Below, in pieces: positions 1 through 59,500 of a DNA stretch of 64,000 bases (its first letter is position 1; each line of letters begins with the position of its first letter). Source of the stretch: Sphaerolaimus hirsutus (Eukaryota > Nematoda > Chromadorea > Monhysterida > Sphaerolaimidae); assembly GCA_964036195.1 (NCBI GenBank), contig OZ038457.1, positions 6,847,147 to 6,911,146 of the forward strand. The letters are read 5' to 3'. A program made the translations under genes and the position numbers. The notes beneath the pieces were generated by a model. It was not told where the DNA came from. It did no database searches and was given only the letters and a program-made list of their open reading frames with translations.

Positions 1-3000
1 TTTGCAAGCCTCTGAGAAGTGGGTACCTAAAGCAGGATTCTCTCCAACCTTCAGTTGGGTTTTGTAGAGTCACCAGGGGGAGCCAACTTTGGGTGGGTCC
101 CCAGGGGGTGCCATTTTTGTGGGGGTTCCTAGGGGGTGCCATGTTTGGGGGGTCCCCAGGGGTGCTATTTTTGGGGGGTCCCTAAGGGGTGCCATTTTTG
201 GGGGGTCCCTAAGGGGTGCCATTTTTTGCTGGTCCTCAGGGGGTGCCATATTTGTGGGGCCCTAGGGGGTCCCATTTTTGGGCGGTTCCCAGGGGGTGCC
301 ACTTTTGGGGGGTTCCCCAGGGGGTGCCATTTGGAGGGGGTCCCCATTGGGGTGTCAGTTTTTGCAAGCCTCTGAGAAGTGGGTACCTAAAGCAGGATTC
401 TCTCCAACCTTCAGTTGGGTTTTGTAGAGTCACCAGGGGGAGCCAACTTTGGGTGGGTCCCCAGGGGGTGCCATTTTTGTGGGGGTTCCTAGGGGGTGCC
501 ATGTTTGGGGGGTCCCCAGGGGTGCTATTTTTGGGGGGTCCCTAAGGGGTGCCATTTTTGGGGGGTCCCTAAGGGGTGCCATTTTTTGCTGGTCCTCAGG
601 GGGTGCCATATTTGTGGGGCCCTAGGGGGTCCCATTTTTGGGCGGTTCCCAGGGGGTGCCACTTTTGGGAGGTTCCCCAGGGGGTGCCATTTGGAGGGGG
701 GTCCCCATTGGGGTGTCAGTTTTTGCAAGCCTCTGAGTAGTGGGTACCTATAGCAGGATTCTCTCCAACCTTCAGTTGGGTTTTGTGGTTCTCTACAATT
801 TATACCACAAGGATTTACAAACACAAAAAGAACAGCAAAGCACAAATGTAACCAATTGAAGATTACAACAAAGTTTGACACCTTGCAAAAACCACACTAT
901 CATATCACAAAACCTATACCACACAGAATGCACAGGGTCCCCAGGGGGGTGCCATTTTTGGAGAGTCCCCAGGGGGAGCCAACTTTGGGTGGGTCCCCAG
1001 GGGGTGCCATTTTTGTGGGGGTTCCTAGGGGGTGCCATGTTTGGGGGGTCCCCAGGGGGTGCTATTTTTATGGGGTCCCAAGGGGGTGCCATTTTTGGGG
1101 GGGCCCTAAGGGGTGCCATTTTCTGGTGGTCCTCAGGGGGTGCCATATTTGTGGGGCCCTAGGGGGTCCCATTTTTGGGCGGTTCCCAGGGGGTGCCACT
1201 TTTAGGAGGTTCCCCAGGGGGTGCCATTTGGAGGGGGGTCCCCATTGGGGTGTCAGTTTTTGCAAGCCTCTGAGTAGTGGGTACCTATAGCAGGATTCTC
1301 TCCAACCTTCAGTTGGGTTTTGTGGTTCTCTACAATTTATACCACAAGGATTTACAAACACAAAAAGAACAGCAAAGCACAAATGTAACCAATTGAAGAT
1401 TACAACAAAGTTTGACACCTTGCAAAAACCACACTATCATATCACAAAACCTATACCACACAGAATGCACAGGGTCCCCAGGGGGGTGCCATTTTTGGAG
1501 AGTCCCCAGGGGGAGCCAACTTTGGGTGGGTCCCCAGGGGGTGCCATTTTTGTGGGGGTTCCTAGGGGGTGCCATGTTTGGGGGGTCCCCAGGGGGTGCT
1601 ATTTTTATGGGGTCCCAAGGGGGTGCCATTTTTGGGGGGGCCCTAAGGGGTGCCATTTTCTGGTGGTCCTCAGGGGGTGCCATATTTGTGGGGCCCTAGG
1701 GGGTCCCATTTTTGGGCGGTTCCCAGGGGGTGCCACTTTTGGGGGGTTCCCCAGGGGGTGCCATTTGGAGGGGGGTCCCCATTGGGGTGTCAGTTTTTGC
1801 AAGCCTCTGAGAAGTGGGTACCTAAAGCAGGATTCTCTCCAACCTTCAGTTGGGTTTTGTAGAGTCACCAGGGGGAGCCAACTTTGGGTGGGTCCCCAGG
1901 GGGTGCCATTTTTGTGGGGGTTCCTAGGGGGTGCCATGTTTGGGGGGTCCCCAGGGGTGCTATTTTTGGGGGGTCCCTAAGGGGTGCCATTTTTGGGGGG
2001 TCCCTAAGGGGTGCCATTTTTTGCTGGTCCTCAGGGGGTGCCATATTTGTGGGGCCCTAGGGGGTCCCATTTTTGGGCGGTTCCCAGGGGGTGCCACTTT
2101 TGGGAGGTTCCCCAGGGGGTGCCATTTGGAGGGGGGTCCCCATTGGGGTGTCAGTTTTTGCAAGCCTCTGAGAAGTGGGTACCTAAAGCAGGATTCTCTC
2201 CAACCTTCAGTTGGGTTTTGTAGAGTCACCAGGGGGAGCCAACTTTGGGTGGGTCCCCAGGGGGTGCCATTTTTGTGGGGGTTCCTAGGGGGTGCCATGT
2301 TTGGGGGGTCCCCAGGGGTGCTATTTTTGGGGGGTCCCTAAGGGGTGCCATTTTTGGGGGGTCCCTAAGGGGTGCCATTTTTTGCTGGTCCTCAGGGGGT
2401 GCCATATTTGTGGGGCCCTAGGGGGTCCCATTTTTGGGCGGTTCCCAGGGGGTGCCACTTTTGGGGGGTTCCCCAGGGGGTGCCATTTGTAGGGGGTCCC
2501 CATTGGGGTGTCAGTTTTTGCAAGCCTCTGAGAAGTGGGTACCTAAAGCAGGATTCTCTCCAACCTTCAGTTGGGTTTTGTAGAGTCACCAGGGGGAGCC
2601 AACTTTGGGTGGGTCCCCAGGGGGTGCCATTTTTGTGGGGGTTCCTAGGGGGTGCCATGTTTGGGGGGTCCCCAGGGGTGCTATTTTTGGGGGGTCCCTA
2701 AGGGGTGCCATTTTTGGGGGGTCCCTAAGGGGTGCCATTTTTTGCTGGTCCTCAGGGGGTGCCATATTTGTGGGGCCCTAGGGGGTCCCATTTTTGGGCG
2801 GTTCCCAGGGGGTGCCACTTTTGGGAGGTTCCCCAGGGGGTGCCATTTGGAGGGGGGTCCCCATTGGGGTGTCAGTTTTTGCAAGCCTCTGAGTAGTGGG
2901 TACCTATAGCAGGATTCTCTCCAACCTTCAGTTGGGTTTTGTGGTTCTCTACAATTTATACCACAAGGATTTACAAACACAAAAAGAACAGCAAAGCACA

Positions 3001-3440
3001 AATGTAACCAATTGAAGATTACAACAAAGTTTGACACCTTGCAAAAACCACACTATCATATCACAAAACCTATACCACACAGAATGCACAGGGTCCCCAG
3101 GGGGGTGCCATTTTTGGAGAGTCCCCAGGGGGAGCCAACTTTGGGTGGGTCCCCAGGGGGTGCCATTTTTGTGGGGGTTCCTAGGGGGTGCCATGTTTGG
3201 GGGGTCCCCAGGGGGTGCTATTTTTATGGGGTCCCAAGGGGGTGCCATTTTTGGGGGGGCCCTAAGGGGTGCCATTTTCTGGTGGTCCTCAGGGGGTGCC
3301 ATATTTGTGGGGCCCTAGGGGGTCCCATTTTTGGGCGGTTCCCAGGGGGTGCCACTTTTAGGAGGTTCCCCAGGGGGTGCCATTTGGAGGGGGGTCCCCA
3401 TTGGGGTGTCAGTTTTTGCAAGCCTCTGAGTAGTGGGTAC
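1..3440. repeat. Three-level hierarchical satellite array
   Basis: The lowest level is a degenerate monomer of about 27-28 bp of the type GGGGGTGCCATTTTTGGGGG followed by TCCC. Runs of these form units of 360-361 bp, each starting with the landmark TTTGCAAGCCTCTGAG. The landmark occurs at 1, 361, 722, 1259, 1796, 2157, 2517, 2878 and 3415. The two steps from 722 and the step from 2878 are 537 bp because about 176 bp of unrelated AC-rich sequence is included. The step pattern 360-361-537-537-361 adds up to a 2,156-bp higher-order unit, and 1-1440 recurs at 2157-3600 almost unchanged. Because the monomer is near 27 bp (a multiple of three), long open frames occur on both strands; they encode only repeats such as GVPKGCHFW and are not genes. 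The G runs could form quadruplexes. Confidence 0.95.
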
Positions 3441-3441
3441 C

Positions 3442-3892
3442 TATAGCAGGATTCTCTCCAACCTTCAGTTGGGTTTTGTGGTTCTCTACAATTTATACCA
3501 CAAGGATTTACAAACACAAAAAGAACAGCAAAGCACAAATGTAACCAATTGAAGATTACAACAAAGTTTGACACCTTGCAAAAACCACACTATCATATCA
3601 CAAAACCTATACCACACAGATTGCACACTGCACACCATCATACCAAATCGCAAACTGTCTACATTTTACTACCGTGTTTCATGCCCAACCATTTTACAGA
3701 AGTTTACAAAAATCCATTCCAAAACATTGCATCTTTGGTATTGGTCTTGTTATTGTTGGTAGATTACATACCGCATTTCAAAACACATGCCTAGCATGTG
3801 GGCAAACTTAACTAAAGTATCATATTTTCTCCAATGGTATTAATTGTAGAGAACCACAAAACCCGACCGAAGGTCGGAGAGAATCCTGCTAG
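3442..3892. mobile_element. MITE forming the right edge of the satellite array
   Basis: The last satellite landmark leads into TAGCAGGATTCTCTCCAACC followed by a GTTGGGTTTTGTGGTTCTC run. This reappears in inverted orientation at about 3845-3892, ending GAGAGAATCCTGCTAG. The arms are about 50-65 bp, so this is a MITE-like element of about 450 bp. The left arm is the same sequence found at the junctions of every satellite unit, which suggests the array grew from inside, or by repeated capture of, this element. No transposase is visible. The superfamily is not assigned because target duplications are unclear. Confidence 0.7.
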
Positions 3893-10700: not shown

Positions 10701-12999
10701 TTAACCGGCCCGTATCGGCGGGCGGAGATCGGCTCGCATGCGCGCAGCTCGTGTCGTCGCCGCGGCAGCGCAACCGGGCCGCTTGAATGGGGAACCGACT
10801 AAGTGCACCGTACCGGCGGCCGGCACTGCGAGATCGCGCGCCGCGAAAAACGGGCAGCTAACTGTTAACGGAACGGAGGGAGGAATGCGCGCCGCGCCGC
10901 ATACCTTCGTACAGACAACAAATCCACAGTAGGTAGACCAAACAAAAGTACGTACCTTTGCAAATCTCGGGCAGGACGGAGTGGGCGCCGCAGCGCAGCA
11001 CGCTGGCCACGGACGATTCCAGTTGGCAGCGGGCTATCAGCGGCTCGATAAAGTCCAAGGCGGTCACCGCCGACACGTCCCAGTTCAGCCGGCCCAACAC
11101 CAAAAGTTCCCATGTCTGCGGGGTGTTTGGAATTTTGATGTGCTTGTAAATTGGATAATGTGCTATGAGAATTGGAGGAAGGAATGAAAAACGGGGTCAA
11201 TTCGTGATCGTGTCAACTGATAAACCTTGTAAAAATGTCAAGTCATAAGTACTGATCATCCGAAAATGTGACAAATTGGTTCACGGGCGAAATTCAATAA
11301 AACGTTCGATCGCCAATAAGAACCACATCGAGCAGGACAACGTAATAAATACTTCACACAAAAAAAACCTGACACCCACCAAAAAAACTTCCAAAACAAA
11401 AAAACAGCCACTCACCAGTATCTGACTAACAGACACAGACCGATCGGTATACTGTGACAAGATCTGCGCGTTGAACGGCGTGGGCAGCTTGACCTTGCTG
11501 GCGACGAACAGGCACACGGTGGCCAGGCACTGCAGCTGGTTGTCGAAGATCTGCTCGATGCACAGGAACCTGTCGAGGATGTTCACCGCCAGCGCGAACA
11601 CCTCGAGCACGGCGCCGCGCTCTTCGGGCCGCTGGGCGGCGCCCCGGTGCTCCATGCACACCTGCGGGGGGGAGGGGGTAGGGAGGGGGGTTTTAGGGCT
11701 GTGATAGACCCGGTGGTGGATCTGAAATAAAATCTACCATCTGCCATTTGAATACAAGAACAAGCATTGAACTTTTTCTCATCATATCTATCACATTGCT
11801 TCGACTTTTCGTGAATTTGATGCAGTTTTTCACGTGACCCGTTTCATAACAAGATGATTTCATTCATTGTACAGCGATATGTCTCTCCGGTTTACGTGCA
11901 CTGCAAAATTAGTTGAAAAACCGTTTTTAATTTCGCAATAAATTCTGAATAAATATTGTCCATTTCGAACCCTGAGAATCGTGTATTTATATAAAAAACA
12001 ACGTGACGCACATCAAACATCCAGCTGGCGACGATGCGACGCATGTGCGGCCGCAAGTGGCGCTGCAACTGCCACATGTCCGAAGCGGGGCAGCGCTGTT
12101 CCGCCGCCAGCAGATTCGACAAAGTCTTGTCGTCTGCGATAAATGGACCGTAAATCACATATGCCCATCATTCAATTGGCGACATGAGAAAACGCGAGCG
12201 GGAAAAATAAAGGTCGTAAAGCCGCGAAGCCAATAAAAGCAATTTCCCAGGCTGTAAATAAGATAAAATATTTCGAAATCATGGCACAGTGCCAAAACGC
12301 GACAAAGTCAAACCCCTACCCTCAAACACACCAACAGCGTGCCGTTCAGGCAGCGGGGGCACTGAGTCCCTGCGCGCCTCTGCCATGAGCCGCTTCTGCT
12401 GCTCGGCGGGCATGGCGGGCGGCAGCGGCACGGCCACGTAGCCGGCGGGGGCGGACACGGCGCCCGCGCGGCTCGTCGTCGCCGCCGAGGGACAGTGCAC
12501 GGCCGCCGCCGACGAACAACGCAGCACGTAGCCCGTGGACGACACGCCGTACATCTGCAGTGAAGGGGAAAGCGTGTACGGGTGTGGCTTGTGTGTCGAC
12601 ACAATTCCGCACCTTGTAGATCGAGCGGCGAGAATTGACATTTTACGAGCAAAGGGAACATGCAAACAAATGCTTGAAAAGTTTTTTAATGATTTTAATG
12701 ACACACAATTTGTCAATTTTATCGATTCTTGACACTCCCTTCGCCACTTGACAAGGTGTGAAACTGTCCCCTGGCCGGCAAAGCCGCACCTTAAATTCGG
12801 GGGCGGTCGCCGCGCCGCCGCTGCAAAGCTGCAGGTAGTTAGCTGGCTTTATTAGCGGCACATTCGCAGCTTCCAATAAATTAGTGGTCGGTGATAATTC
12901 ACGCTTTGCAGTAAGAATCTGCGAGGGGTGAGGCAATTTTTTTAGGCCGCGCGACAGAAATCCCCTCACGCGCGGTGTACACGCGCACGACAGGAACAC
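10701..12999 (-). CDS. D-type cyclin
   Basis: D cyclins bind CDK4/6 and drive G1 progression through Rb phosphorylation; that role is inferred from family membership. The firm exons are 12133-12012, 11661-11416 and 11115-10956, all with GT/AG borders and matching phases. They encode the cyclin box. Visible blocks are MRRIVASWMFDV, then VFALAVNILDRFL, then ATVCLFVASKV and AQILSQYTDRSV, then WELLVLGRLNWDVSAVT with LDFIEPL, in the usual D-cyclin order. Tentative N-terminal exons 12999-12790 and 12554-12332 join in phase and would give an unusually long N-terminus of about 145 residues. No LxCxE Rb-binding motif was seen in them. A tentative last exon, 10861-10701, also joins in phase and ends in a stop codon. 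It resembles the family only weakly and lacks a recognisable PEST tail. Family assignment is secure; the ends are not. The paralogue type cannot be decided. Confidence 0.8.
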
Positions 13000-21017: not shown

Positions 21018-24000
21018 TTAATCGATCGTGGCAACAGTATTGTTCATTTTCGCCACCGCTACCTTGATACTCCGCGTCAGCTTATTATTAAATGGCATTT
21101 TAACGACCTTGGCCGCGGCCTTTGCATAGCTTTTGGTGAAAATCAGATGCAAGATCACAACCAAACTTCCATTTAGGACTGGCGCCAACTCGACGTACCC
21201 CGATAATACAGCCTTGACTAAATTGGAGTCTATGAAAAACTCGGAGCCGGAAGCGAAGAAGTTCACTTTTCCAAAGCTGTCGGCGTAGAGCATGGTGAAA
21301 GTCATCTGCGGAATTGTAAGTACTGGTGGCAATCCCAGACCCTGTAAAAAGCCCTGTAAAATGACAAATGTCATGCAAAGTGTCAAAAGTCATGGAAAAT
21401 GCCCTGTAAAATGGCAACTCGGTTGCCAATTTGCAGGGCATTTTCCATGACTTTTGACACTTTGCATGACATTTGACATTTTACAGGGCTTTTTACAGGG
21501 TCTGGGAGTGGCACCTAGATTCAGTCCGACGGTACCGAAGAGAAGGGAGGTGACGTCCCGAAATGCAGAGTCGTTAGGGCTGTTTCGATTGCCTGCGAAA
21601 AGCGTAGTGAAAAGTAAGGCATTTCCTTGAAAGATACGAACGAGGCCTTTTTCCCACCTCTACGCTCAGCGTTTAAATAAACACCTTCCTTGCTGGTGCC
21701 AGTTCCGCAAGTGGAGAAGTGAGAAGTAAAATGGCAAAAGCGAAGAAAACAGCAAAAACGAAGTGAAATGGCAAGTAAATTGGCAAAAGCTAAGTAAACA
21801 AGGTAATTTATCTTTGCTTTTGCCATTTTACTTCTCAATTCACCTCGGTTTTGCCATTTCACTTTGCTTTTGCAATTTTACTTTTCAATTTACTACGCCT
21901 TTGCCATCTCAGTTTGCTTTTGCCACTTTTACTTCTCACTTCTCCACTTGTGGGACTGGCCCCAGGACATTGGACAAGTTCACCAACCATTTTTTTCACT
22001 TTGGATTGAATATCTCAGGCTATGGTGGGTTTATGAAGCTGAAATGTTGTATACCTAAAACATTTACATAAGTGTTCATGAATGCATACTTTTTAAAAGT
22101 ACCTGAGTATATAAATGTAGATCACAAATTCCAATATGGGGCATAAAATCTATAGTACTGCTCAGATTTAATATCAAAGATATGTGGGGAAGTGCCTTAA
22201 AAAAGAAGTTACAACAAAATATATAGCACTGCTAAAATCATGAAATTTTTGTTGAAGAAACTGTTTGAAACATGTTTCAGGGAACTCCTGGAAGAACTTT
22301 TTGCTGGATATCCACTTTCCACAATCGGATGACGTTATGAGTAACCTAAACTAACTATTTTGTGCCACCCGCTTGTTCCTGAATAACTTGTAGACTATGC
22401 CAGTGACCATGACAACCTGGGCGAGCAGAACAGTGCTCACAAAACCGATTGGCACATTGTACATGGTACGGTATGCTTCACGGACCATGTTGAGCCTCCC
22501 TGTGACCACTTTAATGTAGCCCAGGAGCCAGTTCTGCAAGTGGAGAAATGAGATATAAATTGGTAAAACCAAAGTGAAATGGCAAAAGTGATATGAATTG
22601 AGATGTAAAATAGCAAAAGCGAAGAGAAATTACTTTTTATTTTTGTTTTTGTTTTACTTAGCTTTTGCCAATTTACTTGTCATTACACTTCGCCTTTGCC
22701 ATTTTACTTTGCTTTGACTGTTTTACTTCTCACTTCTCCACTTGCAGAACTGGCACCAGGAAATCAGGGCTAGTCATATTTGGCTTTGGAATGATCTCCG
22801 GTAATTCAGGTAATTGTTTTAGACCAATTGTTAGGTAAATACATGTGGCATAAGAGAGCGGATAAGAAATGGTGATATTCAAAAAAACACACAGCCAGAA
22901 GTACTTTTTAGTTGCCGTGTGCTTGTACCAAATTGGATACAGGACAGCCTGGAATCTATCGAATGTGAGCAGACACAGGAATATCTGGTGCCAGTTCCGC
23001 ATATTGAGAAGTGAGAAGTGAAGTGGCAAAAGTGAAGTGAAGTGAAAAGTGAAATGGCAAAAGCAAAGTTAAATGAGAAGTGAATTGGCAAGAGCGAACT
23101 GAAATGACCATATGTATGAATGGTAAATGACCATTTTAACGTGTGCTGTGTGTTGTAGGTAGGAAATTGCAAAAAGTGCAAAAAAATGTGCCTATCCAAC
23201 GTGTAGACAAGAATTACAGACACATCGTACCACTGTGCCACACACCAGTCAATGTGCCACTCAGGGACGTATGCAGGATTTTTGATGGGGGGGGCGGATT
23301 GTATACGGAGCCTGGCGAATGGGGGGGGGGGTGGCACCCCCCCCCATAAATCTGGCCCTACAGTAAAGGAATGGAGCCATGGCTCTGGTGTTGACACCAA
23401 CGTCTACTATATAGGTATATATTTATACCTATATGTATGGTACCAGAACCACTTTTGGCACTGTCAACCATTTTTCTATTTACTCAATTCAAATTTCAGT
23501 CCATTTTCCATGCTGTTGACGCCCGTTACTCGACCCTGACTGCCTGCCGTGAGGGGTGCTACCCGCCTCCGTAGCCTAGCACTTACTCATGGCCCAGTTT
23601 TGACCATTTATCAATTTTATCAATTTACATTCAACTTTTTCATTAATTTTCAGCTTACGGTTTAACTTAGACAAAAACACATTAAAAAACTCTTTTCCAA
23701 TTTATTTATTGGGCACTTCAGTAATGCATTTTAACCCTGAAAATACATATTAAATAATGAGGTGGCGATTTGCATGCAATTTTCAAAACATTTTTTTTGA
23801 AAGTGCCCACAAATTCGCCTCTGAAAAATACCATTTCTGGCAAATTTTTCTGTCCGGCCGGGGAATGGGCGGCACCCCCCCCCCCCTGCCCGCCCCCCCT
23901 GTGTACATCCTTGGTGCCACTGATATATTTTGCACTATATTGACACTAGATAATGTTCACACAAAAAGAACAAACACAAAAAATTTGAAACAGCCTCACC

Positions 24001-27000
24001 TCCATTTGTTTAATTGTTTTGCATTTTATCGTTACTTGAGATTTTTTTTTTTAATATAATTTTCCATTTCACTTCTCATTTCCCTTCGCACTTCTCATTT
24101 CACTTCGCTTTTGCCATTTCACTTCTCACTTCACTTCTAACTTCTCATTTCACATCTCGTTTGCCATCTCACTTCTCACTTCACTTCGCTTTTGCCATTT
24201 CACTTCTCATTTCTTATTTCACTTCGCTTTTGTCACTTCACTTCGCACTTCTCAATTTGCGGAACTGCCCCCTGGTTCAAAATCAAAGCGAATGTGCTGA
24301 ATCCCTTTGTACATGTATCGTTTTGGACATCATCGGCATTTATAAAAAAGTAAAATGGATTATTGAGTGGAAATAACGTGGCAGAGAGCAATTTGTCGGA
24401 TGCAATGTAGACGAGAAAGTCAGTTATAGTCTCTGCCAAGTGATATTTCATTGCAGCCTGGCAGAGTTGTTAAATGTACTGAACTTTTTGAGGTAAACGT
24501 AAATGTAAAGTGTTCATTTTTCACTCACTACTGAGTACAGAAAATGTAAAGTAGAATTTAAAACGTGAGTCAATTACTTTTGTCCCCGGAAAACGTAATA
24601 TTGGGTATTTTTGAGAAATTTTTCACTCAAAATCACGTATTTCAACACTCTTAATTTCACCTGTTAATGTGTTTTTTTCTCCTATTTTTCAGTTATTTTA
24701 GGATTTTTTCCCCTTTTTTGTAATCGCCTTCTTTCAAAGAGTACGTGAGTATCTGAGTACCAGTATTCTTTTCGGTAGGAAACATGAATGTATTTAATTG
24801 AGTAGGTATACATATTTATCAAGTAAACATAAATACATCTGATAAAAAATAGCTAAAGCCAACAAAAAGTGGACACTGCACCTAACCATGTGTATGCTTT
24901 TGAATGCACAAAAGTAATATATCATATACCATGCCATTTTCTGATTGAGCTATCAAAAGATGTATATCAAGGGAAATGTACACGAATGCTAAAAATATAG
25001 GCTATCAACACAGCAAACTGCATCACAAGAAACAATTTCACCAAACGTTTGCATGGCAGCGTGAGCTGTGTCAAAGTGCTGCAAACATTAAAGATACAAA
25101 AAGCTCACGCTGCCATGCAAAAGTTTGGTGAAATTGTTTCTTGTGATGCAGTTTGCTGTGTTGATAGCCTATATTTTTAGCATTCGTGTACATTTCCCTT
25201 GATATACATCTTTTGATAGCTCAATCAGAAAATGGCATGGTATATGATATATTACTTTTGTGCATTCAAAAGCATACACATGGTTAGGTGCAGTGTCCAC
25301 TTTTTGTTGGCTTTAGCTATTTTTTATCAGATATACTTCTTTTTGAGGGCCACAGGCCCAAAAGTTTATAAGTTATTGCAAATCAAGCAAATGCCAAATG
25401 TGGCAGGGAGCAATACAATCTATAGTCAAGAAGACGCCAAATACTAAGATTCAAAAGATTTTCAACCTGACATTTAGAACCTGAAATTTATCACTTGACA
25501 TTTATGACTTGAAATTACCCACTTGACAATAACTTGACATAAACCACTTGACATTTATGACTGAATGGCATCACTTGATATTTATGACTTGACATGAACT
25601 GCTTGCCATTTTTTCACCTGATAGTTTTCACTTGACATAAACAACTTGACAGGTATCACCTGAAAATTGTTACTTGACATTTGACATGACATTTATCACT
25701 TGACATTAAACTTGACATTTCACTTGACATTTATCATTTGATGTTAAACTTGACATTTGACATGACATTTATCACTTGACATTAAGCTTGACATTTAACT
25801 TGACATTTGACTTGACATTTCACTTGAAATTTATTACTTGACATTTCACTTGAAATGTATCACTTGGCATTTGACTTGACATGGCAATTGAAAGTTATCA
25901 CTATATATTCACCTTGACATTTATCACTTGACATTTGACTTGACTTGACTTTAGACTTGACATTTGACTTGATATTTGATCACTTGACATTAAACTTTAC
26001 ATTTGACTTGACATTTCTCACTTGAAATTTGACTTGACATTTATCACTTGAAATTTGACTTGACATATGACTTGATATTTCACTTGACATTTATGACTTG
26101 ACATTAAACTTGACATTTCACTTGAAATTTGTCACTTCACATTTGACTTGTAATGTGTCACTTGACATTTGACATGACATTTGACATTACATTTCACTTG
26201 AAATTTATCACTTTACATTTGACTTGACATTTGACATGACATTTATCACTTGACATTAAACTTGACATTTCAATTGAAATTTATCAGTTGACATTTGACT
26301 TGAAAGTTTTCACTTGAAATTTGACTTGATACTTTATCACTTGATATTTTATAACTATCTATCACTTGACATTTATCAATTGACAGTTCACTTGAAATTT
26401 ATCACTTGACAATTATCACTTGACATTTCACTTGAAATCTACCACTTGACATTTATCACTTGATATTTGACTTGATATCTTATCACTTAATATTTTATCA
26501 CTAGACATCTATCACTTGACATTTATCACTCGACATTTGACTTGACATTTATAACTTGACATTTGACTTGACATTTATAACTTGACATTTGACTTGACAT
26601 CAACCACTAGACAGTTATGACCTGATAGTAATCAGCATGCAAGGTCACATGCTCAGTATCACATGAAGCAGTAGTTCAGGCATGTTTGCGCATTTTACAC
26701 AAAATAAGCAAACTTGAATAACTTTTGTAAATCTGTACCAAAATTGCCAAAAATTGTCTCATTTGAAAGCTCTAGTCATGGCACATATCAACAAATTTTT
26801 TTTATTGCCCCATTTGTATTCAAATTTTAAATTTATTGAGGTTTGAAAATTTCAAACAGATACCGTACCAAAGTGGGCGGAGCCTGTGAAAAAAAATCCC
26901 GAAAATAAGAAATGGCATCATATTCTCTTTCAAATGAGCCATCAACCATGAAAATCGGTCATGTTTCAAGGAAGTTATTGCAGTTTGAAGATTTTCGGGA

Positions 27001-28149: not shown

Positions 28150-28521
28150 ATATCAAGACCATGTAAAAGACCTGTAAAAGACCCTGTAAAGTGTGAAAGA
28201 CCCTATTAAATGTTATGTGTCATGTAAACGACCCTGTAAAATGTCATGTGTCATGTAAAAAAACCCCATGTAAAGTGTCAAATGTCATGTAAAAGACCCT
28301 GTAAACACTGACCCTTTTTGACATAAAATTTGGATACAATAACAAGAAAAATGAGATTTGGATACACATGACACTTTACAAGGTCTTTTAGATGACATTT
28401 GAGACTTTACAGGGTCTTCTACATGCCACATGACATTTTACAGGGTCTTTTACATGAGACATGCTATTTTACAGGGTCTTTTACAATTTACACGTTTTTT
28501 ACAGGGTCTGGGAGTGGCACC
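28150..28521. repeat. Diverged family F element, left end missing
   Basis: Repeats of GTAAAAGACCCTGTAAA and ATGTCATGTAAA on the left and ACATTTTACAGGGTCTTTTA on the right. The right end GGGTCTGGGAGTGGCACC is intact and is followed by AG. The left terminus is not recognisable, probably removed by the abutting family Q element. Confidence 0.6.
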
Positions 28522-32762: not shown

Positions 32763-32949
32763 GAGGCACTCCCAGACCCTGTCAAAGGCCCTGTAAAATG
32801 TCAAATGTCATGTTATGTGTCAAAGTCATGTAGAATTCCCTGCAAAATGGCAAACATATGTTACCATTTTGCAGGACACTTTACATGACTTTCGACACTG
32901 CATGACATTTGACATTTTACAGGCTTTTACAGGGTCTGGGAGGGACACC
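32763..32949. mobile_element. Introner-like MITE, family F
   Basis: Left AGGCACTCCCAGACCCTGTC, right ACAGGGTCTGGGAGGGACACC followed by AG. The interior palindrome carries TGTAAAATGTCAAATGTCATG. On the minus strand it starts GTGTCCC after TTCTTCTG, so it too presents a GT donor. It abuts the candidate coding segment at 32950-34300. Confidence 0.75.
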
Positions 32950-36212: not shown

Positions 36213-36391
36213 GTGCCACTCCCAGACCCTGTAAAAAGCACTGTAAAATGTCAAATGTGATGCAAAGTGTCTAAAGTCATGGAAAATGCCCTGCAAAATG
36301 GCAACCGTACGTTGCCATTTTGCAGGGCATTTTACACGACTTTTGACACTTCGCATGACATTGACATTTTACAGGGTCTGGGAGTGGCACC
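36213..36391. mobile_element. Introner-like MITE, family F
   Basis: GTGCCACTCCCAGACCCTGT at the left and ACAGGGTCTGGGAGTGGCACC at the right, with TG on both sides (36211-36212 and 36392-36393), supporting a 2-bp duplication. The interior is a palindrome with TGCAAAATGGCAACCGTACG at its centre. It lies outside recognised coding sequence. Confidence 0.85.
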
Positions 36392-36925: not shown

Positions 36926-50181
<13,256 letters not shown>

Positions 50182-50501: not shown

Positions 50502-53500
50502 ATGCAAGTTCTCGTGGAAGCGTGCTGCGCCGGGCTATCATGCGGGTTAGTGAGAGTTGCACAGAGCAATAGATTATCTTGACGTCCTGCGAATTGGTTT
50601 ATGTTTCGGATTCAGTTTCTCCTCCCTTGGAATTTTGCCAAAGCAACAAAAAATCACATTTCGGCGCAGATCGGTGGAATTCGAGACGCAAATCCGTTCT
50701 CTCATCGCTTCACGCAAATATTGGCCGCACGGCCGGCGGGTCGACATCAAAACAAATGACATACTTCACGTTACATTGAGCAAACGGGGTACTCGTGATG
50801 ATGCGGTATGTTTTGTCTCATTTTGGTTCGACATTGATAGCTGATTTTGGAGAATTACACTGAAATCTGCTGGACAATTTTTACAGCCGATCGAGGTTAC
50901 TGGCGACACTGAACTGGATATTCGGCCGTATCGCTTGCTGCACTCTGAGCCGGAATCCTTATTCGTTTCAGGTTATTTTTCAAATCTTTTTTTTTGGCCA
51001 ACTATCTTAAGTTGACTATGGTTGGTAAAAGTTACTTAAAAACGTTGTTGTTCATTGTGCTTTTTACGCGGAGTTCTGATCATATTTATTTGTTCAATTT
51101 CTGCAGGCGACGACAGTAACTGCGACAATGACGCGACCGTTGCGAGTGTTCATTGGCGATTGCCCAATTCACAACTGGAAAACCTTTGGGACACCCTGGT
51201 TTTTGAGGAGGATATAAAATGCAAGGTAACGATTACTTCACGTCCTGTGGCCATGTTTTTTTTCAAATTTTGTTTCTAAGAAGTAAAAAAAAATCACTCT
51301 GTATTCGTAGGGTTGGAAAAAAACGTTTTTTTTAACTCGATGTTTTTTTATTTAAAAAAACACGTTTTTTAAAATAAAAAAAAACGTTGTTTTTTTAAAG
51401 TTCCCAGATATGACCTTGTGTCAACATATATAGGTATATCAGAGAGTGGCAATACTCTGTGATGTTATATATGACCATATAATGGCTGTGGAGCCATGGG
51501 ATAGCATTATAAGTGGTGATTTGTGTCAAAAATATCCATTTTTCGTCGACATATCGTTCGTATATTGCCTTATAGTCGAATGTTCGTGACTTCAGGTAAA
51601 GTTTGGCACGGAATAGTGATGAAACAAGGTTATAAAAGGAGGTTGTTACTTTGGGAGTGAAGTTACACACTGTGGAGGTACATGGAAGCACATTACCTCA
51701 ATATTATATAGTACAGCAACATATGATGGCCTATTAACCCATGGTAGCACATAGAAATGGATACTTTGGTACTAAAAATGCCACAAAACCAATGAAAACA
51801 ACCACCAATGTCAATTTGTGTGTGAAATTGCGCGCTTGCGCGCAAAAATTTTGCAAAATACCTAGTGCTTAGTACTAAAAATTTCGGCCGATGTTTTTTA
51901 AAAAAAAAAAACGTTTAAAAAACATCGGCCAACCCTATGTATGCGTGCAATGCGGATGATTTCTAATGTACATGCAAATTTGTTAAGAGTCATGTAAAAT
52001 GTAAAATTCTATCTTACAGATCAGTTTACACTTTTTTATTTAACGCAACGAAGTTCTATGTCATTTTCGTGTTCAAACGAATGAGCTCAATTTGGTTGCA
52101 GATATTGGATTATGCGGAGGCGATGTTGTTGTTGTCGCAGAGCAACGTCGACCCGGCCATCGTGCCCGTGAACCGCCTTATTCTGCTTCATGGTACAGTT
52201 CCTGGTACTAAATTTCCACCCGTGTACAGTCTCTTAATTGGAAAATGACGTTGTTTTAAACATGTTCTTTTTTGAATTTTAATTCAAATTTCAACTGTTA
52301 CGGACATTTCCGACTAGGGTGTTAAATTTCCGTTTTCGTTTTTCGCTTTTCCGCAGGAAAATTTTTTACCTATCCGTTTTCCGGCAGCTGAAAAAAATTT
52401 ACCTTTCCGTTTTGCGGCAGCCGAAAATTTTTTCCGTTTCCGTTTTTCCGGCCCATTTTCCGTTTTCCGACTGAAAATTTTTTACCTTTCTGTTTCCATT
52501 TTTCCAGGCCATTTTTCCATTTTCTGGCTCGATTTTCAGTTTTCTGGCATTTTTCCATTATTTTTCCAATCTGTATTTATCTTTTTTCACTATGGTGTTT
52601 TTAACTACCAGGTTCTTGTGTCGTTCATAATTATCTGGTTTTTTTATCTATATCCAAATCTGTAAAAAACACAAAGTTATTTTGGACACATACTTTGCAG
52701 TCTGCTGAGTCTACTTTTTACTGTTCAGATACATCATACATCAAAGTGAAAATTTCACTTTCCGTTTTTCCGGCATTTCATTTTCCCGTTTTCCGTTTTC
52801 CGGCCGATAATTCTTTTTTACCTTTCCGTTTTCCGCTGAGTGAAATTTTTTTACCTTTCCGTTTTTCGGCCGATAATTTTTTACCTTTCCGTTTTCCGTA
52901 AAGTAAAAAATTTTACCTTTCCGTTTTCCGTAAAATAATTGTTTGACACCCTATTGCCGACGCAGCATGTTAGTCCCTTATAGTACTAGTAAACGTTGGT
53001 GACAACGCCAATTCCGCGATGGCGTGGCGCCTACAAATGGCGGCAGCGCCATAACTCCATCCCTCTATGACATGGGACAAATTTGAGCGGTTGACGCTCC
53101 CCCCCCCCGTTCACCGGGCTCCCTAAACAATCCGCCCCCCCCCCTGCCCGAAAATCCTGGGTATATCTCCCTGAACCTAACCACACAAATGCCATGTTTA
53201 GGAGTTCCGGGCACTGGCAAAACAACTTTGTGCAAGGCTGTAGCGCAGCGACTGGCCATTCGCTTGCAGCATACTTTTTGCCGCGCCGTGTTTGTGGTCG
53301 TCAACAGTCACAGTTTGTTCTCAAAGTGGTTTTCGGAGGTTGGTTTCAACTAGGGTTGGCCGATGTTTTTTTTAAACGTTTTTTTTTTATAAAAAAAACG
53401 TTTTTTTTTTTTAAAAAACATGACGTCCGAAATGTTTTTTTTTTTTTAAAAACATCGGCCGAAATTTTTAGTACTAAGCACTGGGTATTTTGCAAAACTT

Positions 53501-56500
53501 TTTGCACGCAAGCGCGCAATTTCACACACAAATTGACATTGGTGGTTGTTTTCATTGGTTTTGTTGCATTTTTAGTATCAAAACATCCATTTCTATGTGC
53601 TACCATGGGTGAATAAGCCGACATATGTTGCTGTAATATATAATATTAAGGTAATGTGCTTCCATGTACCTCCACAGTGTGTAACTTCACTGCCAAAGTA
53701 ACAACCTCCTTTTATAACCTTGTTTGATCACCATTTCGTGCCAAACTTTACCTGAAGTCTCGAACATTCAACTATAAGGCGATATACGAACGATATGTCG
53801 ACGAAAAATGGATATTTTTGACACAAATCACCACTTATAATGCTATCCCATGGCTCCACAGCCATTATATGGTCATATTTAACATCACAGAGTATTGCCA
53901 GTGTCTGATATACCTATATGGCGCTACGCACACTGAAGCCGAAATATTCGGCATACGCACGTTTTTGACAAATGCCGAATTAAATGCTGAATAGAAAAAA
54001 ACTTGCTGAACTCAAATCGTCCGTACTCTTGAAAATTAGGTGGTTTGTCAATTCAGCATGTATTTCAGCATTCAAAAGATGTGTACACTTTTTCATGCGG
54101 AAACATTCAGCAATAGGATAAAATCTCAAATGCTGAAATGCAAAGATAAACGAGGATTGGTTTTTGAGATCTCGGGATCGTATCGGGATTGACCTTTTGG
54201 TATCGGGATCGGGATTGGTTTTTGAGATTTCGGGATCGGGATTGACCTTTCGGGATCGGGATTGGCATTTTTCGGGATCGGTAATGGCATTTTTGAAAAC
54301 ATTCTAATATACACGTTTTTTGCCAATGTTTTCACAAAACAGGCTCAAAAACACGTCTGGATGCCAGAAAAGAGGCATAAAGTGGACATTGGTTAAAATT
54401 TATTAATGCAAAAAGGGCATTTAATGAGGTTGACCAAATTTTCTGGGATCGGGATCGGGATTGTATAAATTTTTTTGGGATCGGGATTGTGATTTTGAAA
54501 GTTTCTGGATCGGGATCGGGATTGGCTTTTGAGATTTCGGGATCGGGATCAGGATTGAGGTTTCAGGATCGGGATCGGGACCACCAAATCCCGAAATGTT
54601 TTAGGATCGGGATCGGGATTCCGTTTCGACCCTAGTGCCAACCCTATCCAATATACATAATCACTATTGTCTATTGACCGAAGTTGATGCTGTACAGAGA
54701 ATGTAACTAATTATATCTTGTCATAAAGTTGACATCAAAAATTGTCATCAATTATATCTTGTCACACACACTAGTCAGGGGTAGGAAAGGGGGGGTTCCC
54801 CCCCCCAAATCGCCCAGCTATCTATCTATTCCAGAGGCCGCTCAGCTATCTATCTATCCCGGAGGCAAAATTTTGGGCTACTATCCCCTAAACCCCTCCC
54901 CCCAATCGGCCAGCTATCTACCTATCTGGAGCGATTTTTGGGAAACTATACCCTAATTTTCGCTCAAAATCGCTATTTTCATACCTATATATAGATTTTC
55001 ACCTCCAAAATCACTAGTTCATGCATCTAACTGCCTATTTTGAGCTATTTTTAGTACTATATGTCCTTATATACCCATTTTTAGCCATTTTTCACCTACT
55101 TTCAGCAATTTTTCTCCTTTTCCTCCCTTCTATGCCTATATATTGAGCCCCCGCGAACCCCCCCCAGAAAAATTTTCAGCTATCTATCCCTCCGGAGGAG
55201 TGATTTGCTATCTATCCAACACCCAGGAGGGCCGAAAACTAGAATACCCCTGACACTAGTTGACATCAAAAATTGTGTCAACTAAATTTTGGATAATTAT
55301 TGGTTTTACTTGGCAGCAGGGTTGGCAAAATCTCAGAAAAAAAAATCAAATACAATTTTTATACAATTTTACTACAATTTTAGAAAAAAGAATTTCACAA
55401 AAACTAATACTACAATTTTAGAAAAAAGAATTTCACAAAAACTAATCCTGGTCACAAAGAATAAAAAATAAAAATAAAATAATAATAAAATAAAAATAAA
55501 ATGGAAAATTGAAGAATAAAAAAATAAAAATAAAATGGAAAATTGAAGAAAAAATAAAAATAAAATATAATTTATTTACAATTTTACTGCAGTTTCAGTA
55601 AAAATAATTTTACTAAAACCAACCCTGCTTGGCAGATGCTACAGTGTATGCACAACTTCATGTGTGCAGTGGCAAAAAGGATGACAATTGGGGTTAAGGG
55701 TGACTTCTAGTGAAAATTATGGTCATCGTTTTCAAAAATACTTACTTTTACATTTTCCCATGGAAATAAAAGTAAAAAATTCTACTATACGTTTTCTGCA
55801 CTCAGGAGCGACTAAAAATGAATATTTTACATTAACTTTGAAAACATTGATTACTTTCAACAATCTGGTTTGCAGGCATGCTTAGGGTGACAAATTTCCG
55901 TTTCCGTTTTCTGCAGGCAAATTTTTTCCATTTTCCATTCCGTTTTCCGGTAATTGAATTAATTTTTCCGTTTTCCGTTCCGTTTTCCGACTACAAAATT
56001 TTTTTCCATTTCCGTTCCTGTTTTTCTGGCTAATTATCCCTTTTCTGGCTAAATTTTCAGTTTTTCTGCCTTTTTCCGGCTGAATTTTCAGTTTTTCCGG
56101 CTGAATTTTCAGTTTTTCCGCCTTTTTCCCGTTTTCAGGCTCAATTTTCAGTTTTTCAGCCTCATATTCCCCTTTTCTGGCTCAATTGTCTGTTTTCTGT
56201 TTCAGCCAAACTGGTAAACATGCATGCAGGTTTTCAATTATGTGACTTTTTCCATTTTCCATCAAAATTTCAGCAATTTTTAGCATTTCCAGGAAATTTC
56301 CACAATTTTTTTGTTTTCTGGCAAAATTTCATTTTTCCATTTCCAGTTTTCCGGCCTTGTTTTCCTTGTTGCTGAAATTTTATTTCCGTTTTCTGGCAAG
56401 TGCAAAAAAATTTCCGTTTCCATTTTCCATAACAAAATTTTTTTGACACCCTAGGCACGCGCTGTTCCAATGTTTATCATTACTATTCGCTCATGTATAG

Positions 56501-59500
56501 GGTTCAAACGGGATCCCGATCCCGGATCCCGTGAAATTCCGGGATTTACCAGTCCCGATCCCGATCCTGAAACCCCAATCCTGATCCCGATCCCGAAATC
56601 TCAAAAATACCAATCCCGATCCCGAAAGTTTTCAAATCCCGATCCCGATCCCGAGAAACTCCCAAGTCCGGGATCCCGATCCCGGAAAAATTAGTGGAAA
56701 TTATAAAAAGTGAAATAATGACGTTTTTGCATGCAAAAAAGTGGATGCAAACCCCCAGCGTCAATTTTATGCCACTTTTCTGGCATCCAACAGTGTTTTG
56801 AGACCTTTATGAACAACTGTGAATGCCAGAAAAATGGCCAAAATTTCTATCCCTAGAACCCAATCCCGATCCCGGAAAAATGCCTATCCCAATACCGATC
56901 CCGTGACCCCAATCCCGGCCAATCCCGATCCCGAAATCTCAAATTACCAATCCCGATCCTGATCCCGAAATCTCAAAAAGTGAATCCCGATCCCGATCCT
57001 GATCCCGAAAAGTCAATCCCGTTTGAACCCTACTCATGTACACACATTGCCCAAATTCCCAAAATGGTTCGTACGTTTTTTCTGTTTACACACTGTTGAA
57101 CTGTGCTGAACTACAATATCTCAAGAATGAGCAGTTTTTAAAAAAAATTATGGTCTTCATTTTTGAAGATCATGTTCATACATGTTCATAAAAAATGTTT
57201 CATGAAGATGTATGAAAAACTAGATGAGATCTGGATCATTTCACAGCAGTAGATTTTCTGCCAATTGCTGAACTGGTTTGCTGAAATGAAAGTGTCTGGA
57301 TACAATTTTTTCACAAGATGCTGAAATGTTAAATTCAGCATATGACCAAAAATGCTGGAAAATCATCTAAATCCGTCCGAATTTGTCCGAATTCGTACGG
57401 TTGCTGAATGTCTGGACCCAAAAATGCTGGTCTAAAACCGTCCGAACAGCATTTTTTTAGTTCGGATTCGGCAGATGAAAACGTGCGTATGCCGAATATT
57501 TCGGCTTCAGTGTGCGTAGCGCCAATATGTTGACACTAGGTCATATCTGGGAGCTTTTTAAAAAAAACGTTGTTTTTTTTAAAAAACGTTGTTTTTTTTA
57601 AAAAACGTTGTTTTTTTAAAAAAACATCGAGTTAAAAAAAACGTTTTTTTCCAACCCTAGTTTCAACAGTTTCGCTTTTGAAAATTAATTAGATTTTTTT
57701 ATTTTTTTGCAAAATTGTGTCACACCGCAGAGTGGAAAACTGATCCAGCGGATGTTCGACCAAGTGAATCAACTGTTGTTGGATGTTAAGATGCTCGTGG
57801 TCGTGCTTGTCGATGAAGTTTGTTTGACGTTCAGCTACTTCCAGATTTGGTAACATGTCGAGAACATTTGGTTCCAGCTAACGCATGCTCAAACACAAAA
57901 AAGGAATTACCGTATTCCCTCGAATTACCCCCGGGGGTATTTTTCCGAGTGCAAATTGTGAGGGGGTGATGTAATATCATCTTCACCAACATTATATCAC
58001 ATGAATAACTCGCTATTGCACTTTGAGGTGGAGAGCATCGGCATGTGCCGCGAGAGTGCGCTCGCACGTAACGAACCCTCGGACTCTGTGAGGGCTGTCA
58101 ACGCCCTGCTCACGCAGCTCGACGCCATTGCCAGGTGAATATAGCAAAAAGATTTTGTAAACTCGACGGACATTATGGAAGTCAATGCTCTACGGGATTT
58201 TCGTACAACTGCGTATATTCGTAGTTGGCACTCGTCCAAGTTACCGTTTGAGAGAATGTTACCCAGTATGAAAGATGCAGGATTTCCGTCTGCGTCATCA
58301 AAAATGGCTGCGGAATGCGATTAAGCGAACACAATTGGTCGCTAATGGCGGCGCACACACGAGTTGACACACATGTTGATTTAATTGGATACCGCGGTCA
58401 TTTTCGTTGACGAGAGCGGAAATCTAGCGTCTTTTACCTCATTCGTATTCAACGCAAAGGTAACTTGGACGCACTGGGAAGTTCATACTAGGGTTCAAAC
58501 GGGACCACTTTTTCGGACCGGGACCGGGACCAGAAATTTTTCTTATCGGGACCGGGACCGGGACTAGGTGGTCGGGACCGGGACCGGGACTGGCATTTTT
58601 CAATTGTCGGGACCGGGACCGGGACTGGGGCATCCGGACCGGGACCAGGATTTGCCGAACCAGGTACCAAGACCACAGCCCCCTTTTGAGCCCTATCGGG
58701 ACCGATAACCATTTGAATGCATATTTTCAGAAGTTTCATACGATTTTCACACTTCATTCAATCAAAATTGTCATCAAAAATAAAATAAAAGTCACAAAAT
58801 TCAATTGAGTCACAAAAAAGGACATTACGCACGAAAATTATGACAGTGAGTATTGATACATAAGCTGGCGCAGTGCTTTCTGAAGGAAAATAAATATTTC
58901 AGCCTTCTCTGATGTCGAACATGAATGAGAATGCTTGGAATGGCGGGGGCCTCGCCGTAATGAAAACCCGGCCGTAATGAAAGCCTGGCCGTAATGTATG
59001 CCTACCCGGCTGTAATGAAAGCCTGGCCGTAATGTAGGGGATGCTACATTCCGGCCAGGCTTTCATTACATCCGGGTGGGCATACATTACGGCCAGGCTT
59101 TCATTACGGCCAGGTTTTCATTACGGCCGCTACACCCTCGCTTGGAACTCACCAAAAAAAACGTCAAAAAATCGTCGACGGAATGAGAATGCGCCGACTG
59201 GCGCAAATTTTTTTGAATTTTACAAATATTTAATAGGCAAAATTTGGTTCCAGTCCAGTTAATTTTTCTTATCAGGACCACTGAAAAATTCCGGGACCGG
59301 GACCGGGACTGGGTGGTCGGGATCGGGACCGGGACCGGGACTGGCCTTTTTCAATTGTCGGGACCGGGACCGGGACTGGGGTGTCGGGACCGGGACCGGG
59401 ACCGCCCCAGTCCCGACTTTTTGCCGAACCATGTACCGGGACCGCGGTCCCGTTTGAACCCTAGTTCATACGTTCTTTTTTGAAGGAATTCGTCGAGACT

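Follow-up and report, generated by a model that had tools for sequence, protein, structure and literature searches.

Results

An inverted element splits a receptor gene

The window, by which we mean the whole 64-kb stretch of DNA analysed here, carries on its minus strand a receptor gene in which TM6 is split by a near-palindromic element with 94-nt arms, 95% complementary to each other, and a 3-nt spacer (Table 1). Read in the direction of the gene, the borders run from exon ...CTGAATCTAG (to 21515) through the element, GTGCCACTCCCAGACCCTG...GGGATTGCCAC (21514-21326), and a CAG (21325-21323) into exon TACTTACAATTCC (from 21322); the wider context is ...GTCGGACTGAATCTAG/GTGCCACTCCCAGACCCTG...CAGGGTCTGGGATTGCCAC/CAG/TACTTACAATTCCG.... 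As RNA, 21323-21515 is predicted to fold into one hairpin whose ends are paired (-156.9 kcal/mol, z -26.6). Without removal, the upstream receptor frame hits a stop at 21390, within the element. Removal of 21514-21323 joins SLLFGTVGLNL to VLTIPQMTFTML in an unchanged frame and without a scar (GTVGLNL/VLTIPQM), and the joined frame stays open (...SLLFGTVGLNL/VLTIPQMTFTMLYAD...). The original prediction, that a GT donor and an AG acceptor would remove the insert exactly and keep the frame, agrees with this open frame, splicing itself being inferred from selection and homology. The duplication that it read as AG is a 3-bp CWG, present at this locus as TAG on the left and CAG on the right, two copies that have only AG in common.

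The joined receptor, from TM3 to TM7, matches 7tm_1 with an E value of 2.7e-5, below the Pfam cut-off. TM6-7 alone gave zero matches in a Pfam search, and the joined receptor had zero relatives at E 0.01 in a large protein collection.

The terminal 19-mer of the focal element has seven matches in the window at up to 3 mismatches, compared with none in 100 shuffles. By eye, the interiors of the three other window copies of the family (Table 1) are related, contrary to the earlier description of copies with unrelated interiors. A second family (GTGCCAGTTCCGC...), whose first six bases are the same as those of the focal family, is found in neighbouring receptor introns; in the receptor direction (minus strand), its possibly composite member at 22988..24271 reads CAG/GGGGCAG...GGCAC/CAG.

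Table 1. Positions of the focal element, the flanking receptor exons and related elements in the window.
Feature	Position	Strand	Basis
Predicted intron from the element, GT...CAG, 192 nt	21323..21514	-	Sequence borders and open joined frame
Element itself, 189 nt, two arms	21326..21514	-	Borders; 7 substitutions/189 vs family consensus
Donor-side target-site copy TAG (degenerate CWG)	21515..21517	-	Sequence; CWG rule from other copies
Acceptor-side target-site copy CAG, predicted 3' splice site	21323..21325	-	Sequence
Upstream exon part, first half of TM6, preceded by ordinary-looking TTTTCGCAG acceptor	21515..21592	-	Sequence, by eye
Downstream exon part: second half of TM6, TM7, C-terminus, stop TAA	21018..21322	-	Sequence
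Second-family element within adjoining larger receptor intron	21696..21962	+	Sequence
Second-family element in receptor gene, CTG/GTGCCAGTTCTGC...GGCTC/CTG, GT start, no terminal AG	22525..22756	-	By eye
Second-family element or composite, CTG/GTGCCAGTTCCGC...GGAACTGCCCC/CTG	22988..24271	+	Sequence
Left end of a same-family copy whose right end is lost or diverged	28502..28520	-	End matches, sequence
Same-family copy with diverged ends	32763..32948	+	End matches, sequence
Same-family copy, CTG/GTGCCAC...GTGGCAC/CTG	36213..36390	+	End matches, sequence

GPCR-type receptors have a usual TM3 spacing, which would be met here by a 2-codon scar in the receptor intron 24271-22988; such a scar could not be reconciled with a pre-insertion gene, and we make no claim for it. 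The same 1.3-kb intron contains a second GPCR-like TM3 piece (23150-23290, minus strand; VILVYTLDRH), by eye perhaps from a tandem copy. Elsewhere in the window, repeated long frames with GVPKGCHFWGVP-like units on both strands (133-3800) apparently form a tandem array, a cyclin-like exon was recognised by eye at 11281-11733 (minus strand), and exons of a TRIP13/PCH2-like AAA ATPase with ordinary-looking GT-AG borders extend over 53130-61000 (plus strand). Two fold-back elements outside the introner family (24825-25344 and 42381-42890) each have arms of about 240 nt, 98-99% complementary, with 34 nt between them.

A high-copy family with a CWG target

In the genome (348.5 Mb, 762 contigs), we counted 1,299 exact matches to the 20-mer GGTGCCACTCCCAGACCCTG and none to its reversed control. 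Exact donor ends number 1,764 where CAG precedes (CAGGTGCCANTCCCAGACCCTG) and 1,522 where CTG precedes (CTGGTGCCANTCCCAGACCCTG), a CAG share of 53.7% of 3,286. We examined 170 copies: 40 from a DNA search (20 loci left after removal of 10 opposite-strand duplicates of the same places, and 20 more) and 130 from the first 12 Mb of contig C1, taken in order (60 CAG-donor and 70 CTG-donor copies). The right end was identified in 150 of the 170. The two ends of the family are unequal, with GTGCCA at one and GGGGCA or a variant at the other, and on the acceptor side the element ends in ...GGGANTGCCCC, followed by CAG or CTG. By target site, the 150 complete copies fall into CAG/CAG (55), CTG/CTG (50), CTG/CAG (19), CAG/CTG (5) and other (21). 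The target duplication, seen in independent copies, is thus a 3-bp CWG.

A CWG target, and not AG, points to NuwaI-type transposons. This group of the PHIS superfamily is described as having a CWG target duplication, occurring in animals only within the survey concerned, and carrying inverted ends of 12-61 bp that usually begin with GGG; its autonomous copies encode a DDE transposase and a Myb/SANT protein (PMC4482050). The present family resembles it in its target. Its own ends are inverted, one starting with GGGGCA and the other with GTGCCA, and the inverted part makes up nearly the whole element. We read the element as a non-autonomous MITE, a DNA transposon that is palindromic over almost all of its length, and a NuwaI-type (PHIS/Harbinger-like) transposase as its most likely mover. 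Whereas the consulted sections of that survey describe transposons and make no mention of introns (PMC4482050), the copies here are putative introns; among the titles listed in a search of the open-licence literature, the two on PHIS transposons do not mention introns either. The focal receptor intron is probably of the CAG-target kind, GT-AG and scarless.

Copies in coding exons lie mostly GT first

Coding sequence beside the copies was called with a codon-position HMM self-trained on the flanks; left and right flank were scored separately, and a flank counted as coding when its mean posterior exceeded 0.5. Of 148 complete copies (two near-duplicates were dropped from the 150), 62 were called coding on both sides. 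After removal of the element and one target copy, frame and strand agree in 42 of these 62, about 10 being expected at 1/6 (binomial p 5e-19); in the remaining 20, the two sides are on opposite strands (12) or in shifted frames (8). With stricter posteriors, 33 of 43 copies (0.7) and 19 of 22 (0.9) are frame-continuous. The HMM misses exons, leaving the focal copy (L001), which it did not call coding on both sides, as well as L017, L037, L045 and L090 outside the 42, and its counts are therefore probably low. An earlier version, run on 92 copies, had given 16 of 26 continuous, 14 of them on the GT-first strand. Two other tests preceded the HMM. The first and cruder one, based on the longest open frame spanning the junction, did not distinguish CAG from CTG copies (p 0.35); a codon-only model, by which 19 of 34 frames matched, got likely exons wrong, L090 among them. 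The HMM took the place of both.

Frame continuity alone implies insertion into exons. The gene moreover lies on the GT-first strand of the element in 38 of the 42 frame-continuous copies and on the other strand in four, one of which (L025) also begins with GT in the direction of the gene. By class, GT-first and other-strand copies number 15 and 0 for CAG/CAG (n=54, p 2e-5), 7 and 0 for CTG/CAG (n=19), 16 and 3 for CTG/CTG (n=50, p 0.003) and 0 and 1 for the rest. Target frequency does not explain this bias, since the coding calls contain sense CAG (269) and sense CTG (282) with equal frequency. The bias shows that the GT matters, as splicing predicts, and as DNA excision or decay does not. Excision by a transposase at the DNA level before expression, as for the internal eliminated sequences of ciliates, would make removal exact whether the target is CAG or CTG, and the target is nearly palindromic; such a process is blind to strand, however, and the elements are present in the assembly, and we regard it as extremely improbable.

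Removal could also be non-spliceosomal and guided by the hairpin, as discussed for the nonconventional introns of euglenids and hemistasiid diplonemids. The focal intron does form one long stem with its two ends paired, diplonemid introns are described as lacking GT-AG and as paired end to end (PMC12621601), and among full-length copies the arm complementarity of exonic ones is higher (median 0.844, n=20) than that of the others (0.778, n=44; p 0.006). Exonic copies are also nearer to the consensus, however, which alone is enough to raise complementarity, and a hairpin-guided route should be indifferent to a GT or a GG start, to which the data are not; we consider it improbable. Three frame-continuous CTG/CTG copies (L035, L128 and L136) lie on the strand that starts with GG, and removal at the element ends as GT-AG or GT-TG cannot explain them. 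L035 has an AMP-binding match across the junction (E 6e-13, 72 residues to 68 positions), and L128 has no Pfam match.

Under spliceosomal removal, the preferred reading, the 38 GT-first exonic copies would use the GT of the element as donor; 22 of them have an AG downstream and 16 a CTG end. The introner interpretation of the original prediction accordingly stands as far as copies in coding exons, frame continuity and GT-first orientation are concerned, but not in its splice-site rule, the target being CWG rather than AG and the downstream AG being confined to these 22. Its suggestion of a family that may mass-produce introns agrees with the genome-wide counts of termini and donor ends and with the exact frame continuity of two-sided coding copies in the sample. 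In the C1 sample, exonic copies on the GT-first strand comprise 14 of the 60 CAG-donor copies and 14 (CTG/CTG) plus 6 (CTG/CAG) of the 70 CTG-donor copies. Scaled to the genome, this would correspond to about 400 (CAG-donor), 300 (CTG/CTG) and 130 (CTG/CAG) introns, figures that hold to an order of magnitude only, as the sample covers a stretch of a single contig and some exons escape the HMM. Hundreds of introns in this genome are probably products of the family.

Homology across the joined junctions

Of 30 joined frames submitted to Pfam, nine remained without a match at the thresholds applied, and a further four had weak matches only. Among CAG/CAG copies, a CUB match runs over the junction of L037 (E 3.8e-8). 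LRR (L090, E 4.5e-12) and cadherin (L148) are matched on both sides but not across, and joining in L148 re-forms the motif DQ/NDNAPQF. Matches on one side only were obtained for PAN (L022, E 8e-5) and, below the cut-off, for cadherin (L147, E 4.6e-6). In the CTG/CAG class, Vma12 (L044, E 8.5e-10), cyclin (L138, E 2.6e-7) and the Na/K-ATPase alpha subunit (L168, 93 gapless residues in the best chain) all match over the junction.

CTG/CTG copies interrupt conserved genes, and after exact removal the alignments of CNOT9, AMPK-gamma and BCKDHA with solved proteins are gapless at the junction. The joined CNOT9 piece (L174) aligns to 9jnl over 133 residues without any gap (E 2.7e-73), the sole gap in AMPK-gamma (L071, E 3.8e-38) lies more than 50 residues past the junction, and that in BCKDHA (L137, E 2e-17) about 30 residues past it. 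A fourth copy (L068) has a CHGN domain (E 3.8e-16) and matches chondroitin sulfate synthase 2 (E 5.9e-11) with a gapless junction and a 2-residue gap later; it had been taken for a broken gene, an assignment dropped on this match. Below the Pfam cut-off, the joined frame of L048 (CTG/CTG) matches an Srw-type GPCR over the junction (38 residues to 38 positions, E 0.002), L025 (CCG/CCG) a kelch domain over the junction (78 to 78 positions, E 3.7e-5) and L017 (CCG on the donor side) EGF (E 0.007). Weak matches of L008, L040, L063 and L112 were not used, and L024 was rejected as an exonic case, since by eye it appears to lie within a papain-like gene, in one of its ordinary GT-AG introns. On contig C1 (near 3191464-3191837), the copies L092 and L055 are separated by about 350 bases, one having CAG flanks and the other CTG flanks; by eye, they seem to delimit a single SMYD-like exon. 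The frame obtained by joining at L092 has no Pfam match.

From their divergence from the consensus, several exonic CTG/CTG copies are not new insertions: the CNOT9 element carries a deletion and 9 substitutions over 171 aligned bases, the AMPK-gamma element 17 substitutions over 185 and the BCKDHA element 11 over 189. This bears on the possibility that the genes are dead or dying and the copies in them plain, unspliced MITE insertions, with the genes broken or present on one haplotype only. The poor conservation of the window's receptor would fit such decay, and so would the 3 substitutions in 163 aligned bases of L068, by which some copies may be young. Broken genes would not be expected to show the strand bias of 38 to 4, however, nor CNOT9 its gapless junction or AMPK-gamma its own around elements that have diverged this far, and we hold decay to be quite improbable.

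CTG-flanked copies and the 3' end

CTG/CTG copies have no terminal AG, and they are exonic at a rate like that of CAG/CAG copies (16/50 vs 15/54). An AG nine bases before the end (-9) is rarer in exonic copies (5/38) than in the others (32/85; p 0.006), a depletion in which subfamilies could play a part. Only 2 of the 16 exonic CTG/CTG copies have it, and its use would add three codons; use of TTACAG at -19 would shift the frame.

Splicing of these copies to an ordinary AG further downstream, with the loss of a few codons, is rather unlikely. The few ordinary introns that we viewed are, by eye, GT-AG (in the TRIP13-like gene, in the next AMPK-gamma intron and at single borders beside L137 and L138), and in 8 of the 16 exonic CTG/CTG copies the downstream exon has its first AG in frame, which would agree with such splicing. 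This is no clear enrichment, however, over the 6 of 15 exonic CAG/CAG copies, and use of this AG would delete VKTDE from CNOT9 and VVFDTQ from AMPK-gamma, residues with complete or near-complete identity to the solved proteins; in BCKDHA, the first downstream AG is out of frame.

Conserved junctions, the depletion of the -9 AG and the lack of enrichment for in-frame downstream AGs together make exact removal with a TG 3' end the simplest reading. For copies with a CTG target, exact removal would be GT-TG, the least certain step of our account, and the family would then probably be a maker of both GT-AG and GT-TG introns. The acceptor-side target copy has changed from CTG to CAG in 19 of 69 copies and from CAG to CTG in 5 of 60 (p 0.006; in the C1 sample alone 16/56 vs 5/47, p 0.03), which suggests that AG is better than TG and is selected after insertion. 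We lean slightly towards the view that one transposon family has given an animal hundreds of GT-TG spliceosomal introns and a similar number of GT-AG ones, TG being accepted even in CNOT9 and AMPK-gamma, perhaps as the hairpin presents the intron end, and being then selected towards AG. If so, each CWG insertion amounts to a natural experiment that compares AG with TG as 3' end, all else being equal.

TG as an intron 3' end is shared with 36 human genes, where it is reported at alternative sites (PMC2374985), and with Micromonas, for which 34 introns with TG or CG acceptors are listed (PMC3879977); in contrast to these numbers, perhaps hundreds would here derive from one element family. Among the titles listed in a search of the open-licence literature, which is no proof of absence, none was on TG-ended introners.

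Discussion

The best overall explanation, to which we give a probability of roughly 0.87, is a NuwaI-type MITE with a CWG target whose GT end serves as donor and whose copies are spliced out exactly, making hundreds of introns. A NuwaI-type transposase would insert the MITE and duplicate the 3-bp CWG target, and a GTGCCA end placed after CAG or CTG would provide a GT donor at the first base of the element. Where the target reads CAG on the gene strand, splicing would be GT-AG and scarless; where it reads CTG, equally exact removal would have GT-TG borders, and selection would after insertion change the acceptor-side CTG to CAG.

Introners have been proposed as a major source of new introns, and the part of the literature covered here names few animal cases. 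The large copy number, the simple target rule and the two putative 3' ends in one genome make both the needs of a newborn intron and the strictness of the AG rule directly testable. They also suggest how selection mends a poor splice site, as TG-ended copies appear to turn into AG.

Introners are characterised as repeated introns that are similar up to their splice borders, have inverted ends and target duplications supplying splice sites, and are usually removed exactly; rare GC and GA donors are mentioned in the relevant part of that report, TG acceptors are not (PMC9860276, Gozashti et al, 2022). Inverted ends, similarity up to the borders, a target-supplied splice site and the usually exact removal, which is here putative, are common to both, whereas in the present family the supplier is a 3-bp CWG, the donor would be the first GT of the element, and the central base of the target would decide between an AG and a TG 3' end (compare PMC9860276). 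Similarity up to both borders of the putative introns is seen in the 42 of 62 frame-continuous copies and in the homology junctions, and the splice sites would come from element and target jointly, GT being the element's first bases and AG or TG lying in the target copy.

The non-canonical introns of Fritillaria borealis are reportedly of MITE origin. Many introns of this animal are described as falling outside GT-AG, with AG/AC and AG/AT borders and a YAY triplet (PMC13326754). Many introns outside GT-AG would thus be common to both animals, the TG ends here being putative, but the present copies start with GT and end in CWG, giving GT-AG and presumably GT-TG introns rather than AG/AC or AG/AT with YAY. 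The nonconventional introns of euglenids and diplonemids are reported to lack GT-AG and to have ends in a long stem, and a MITE origin has been suggested for them (PMC12621601). Base-paired ends and a suggested MITE origin are shared with the present family, in which the GT end is under selection.
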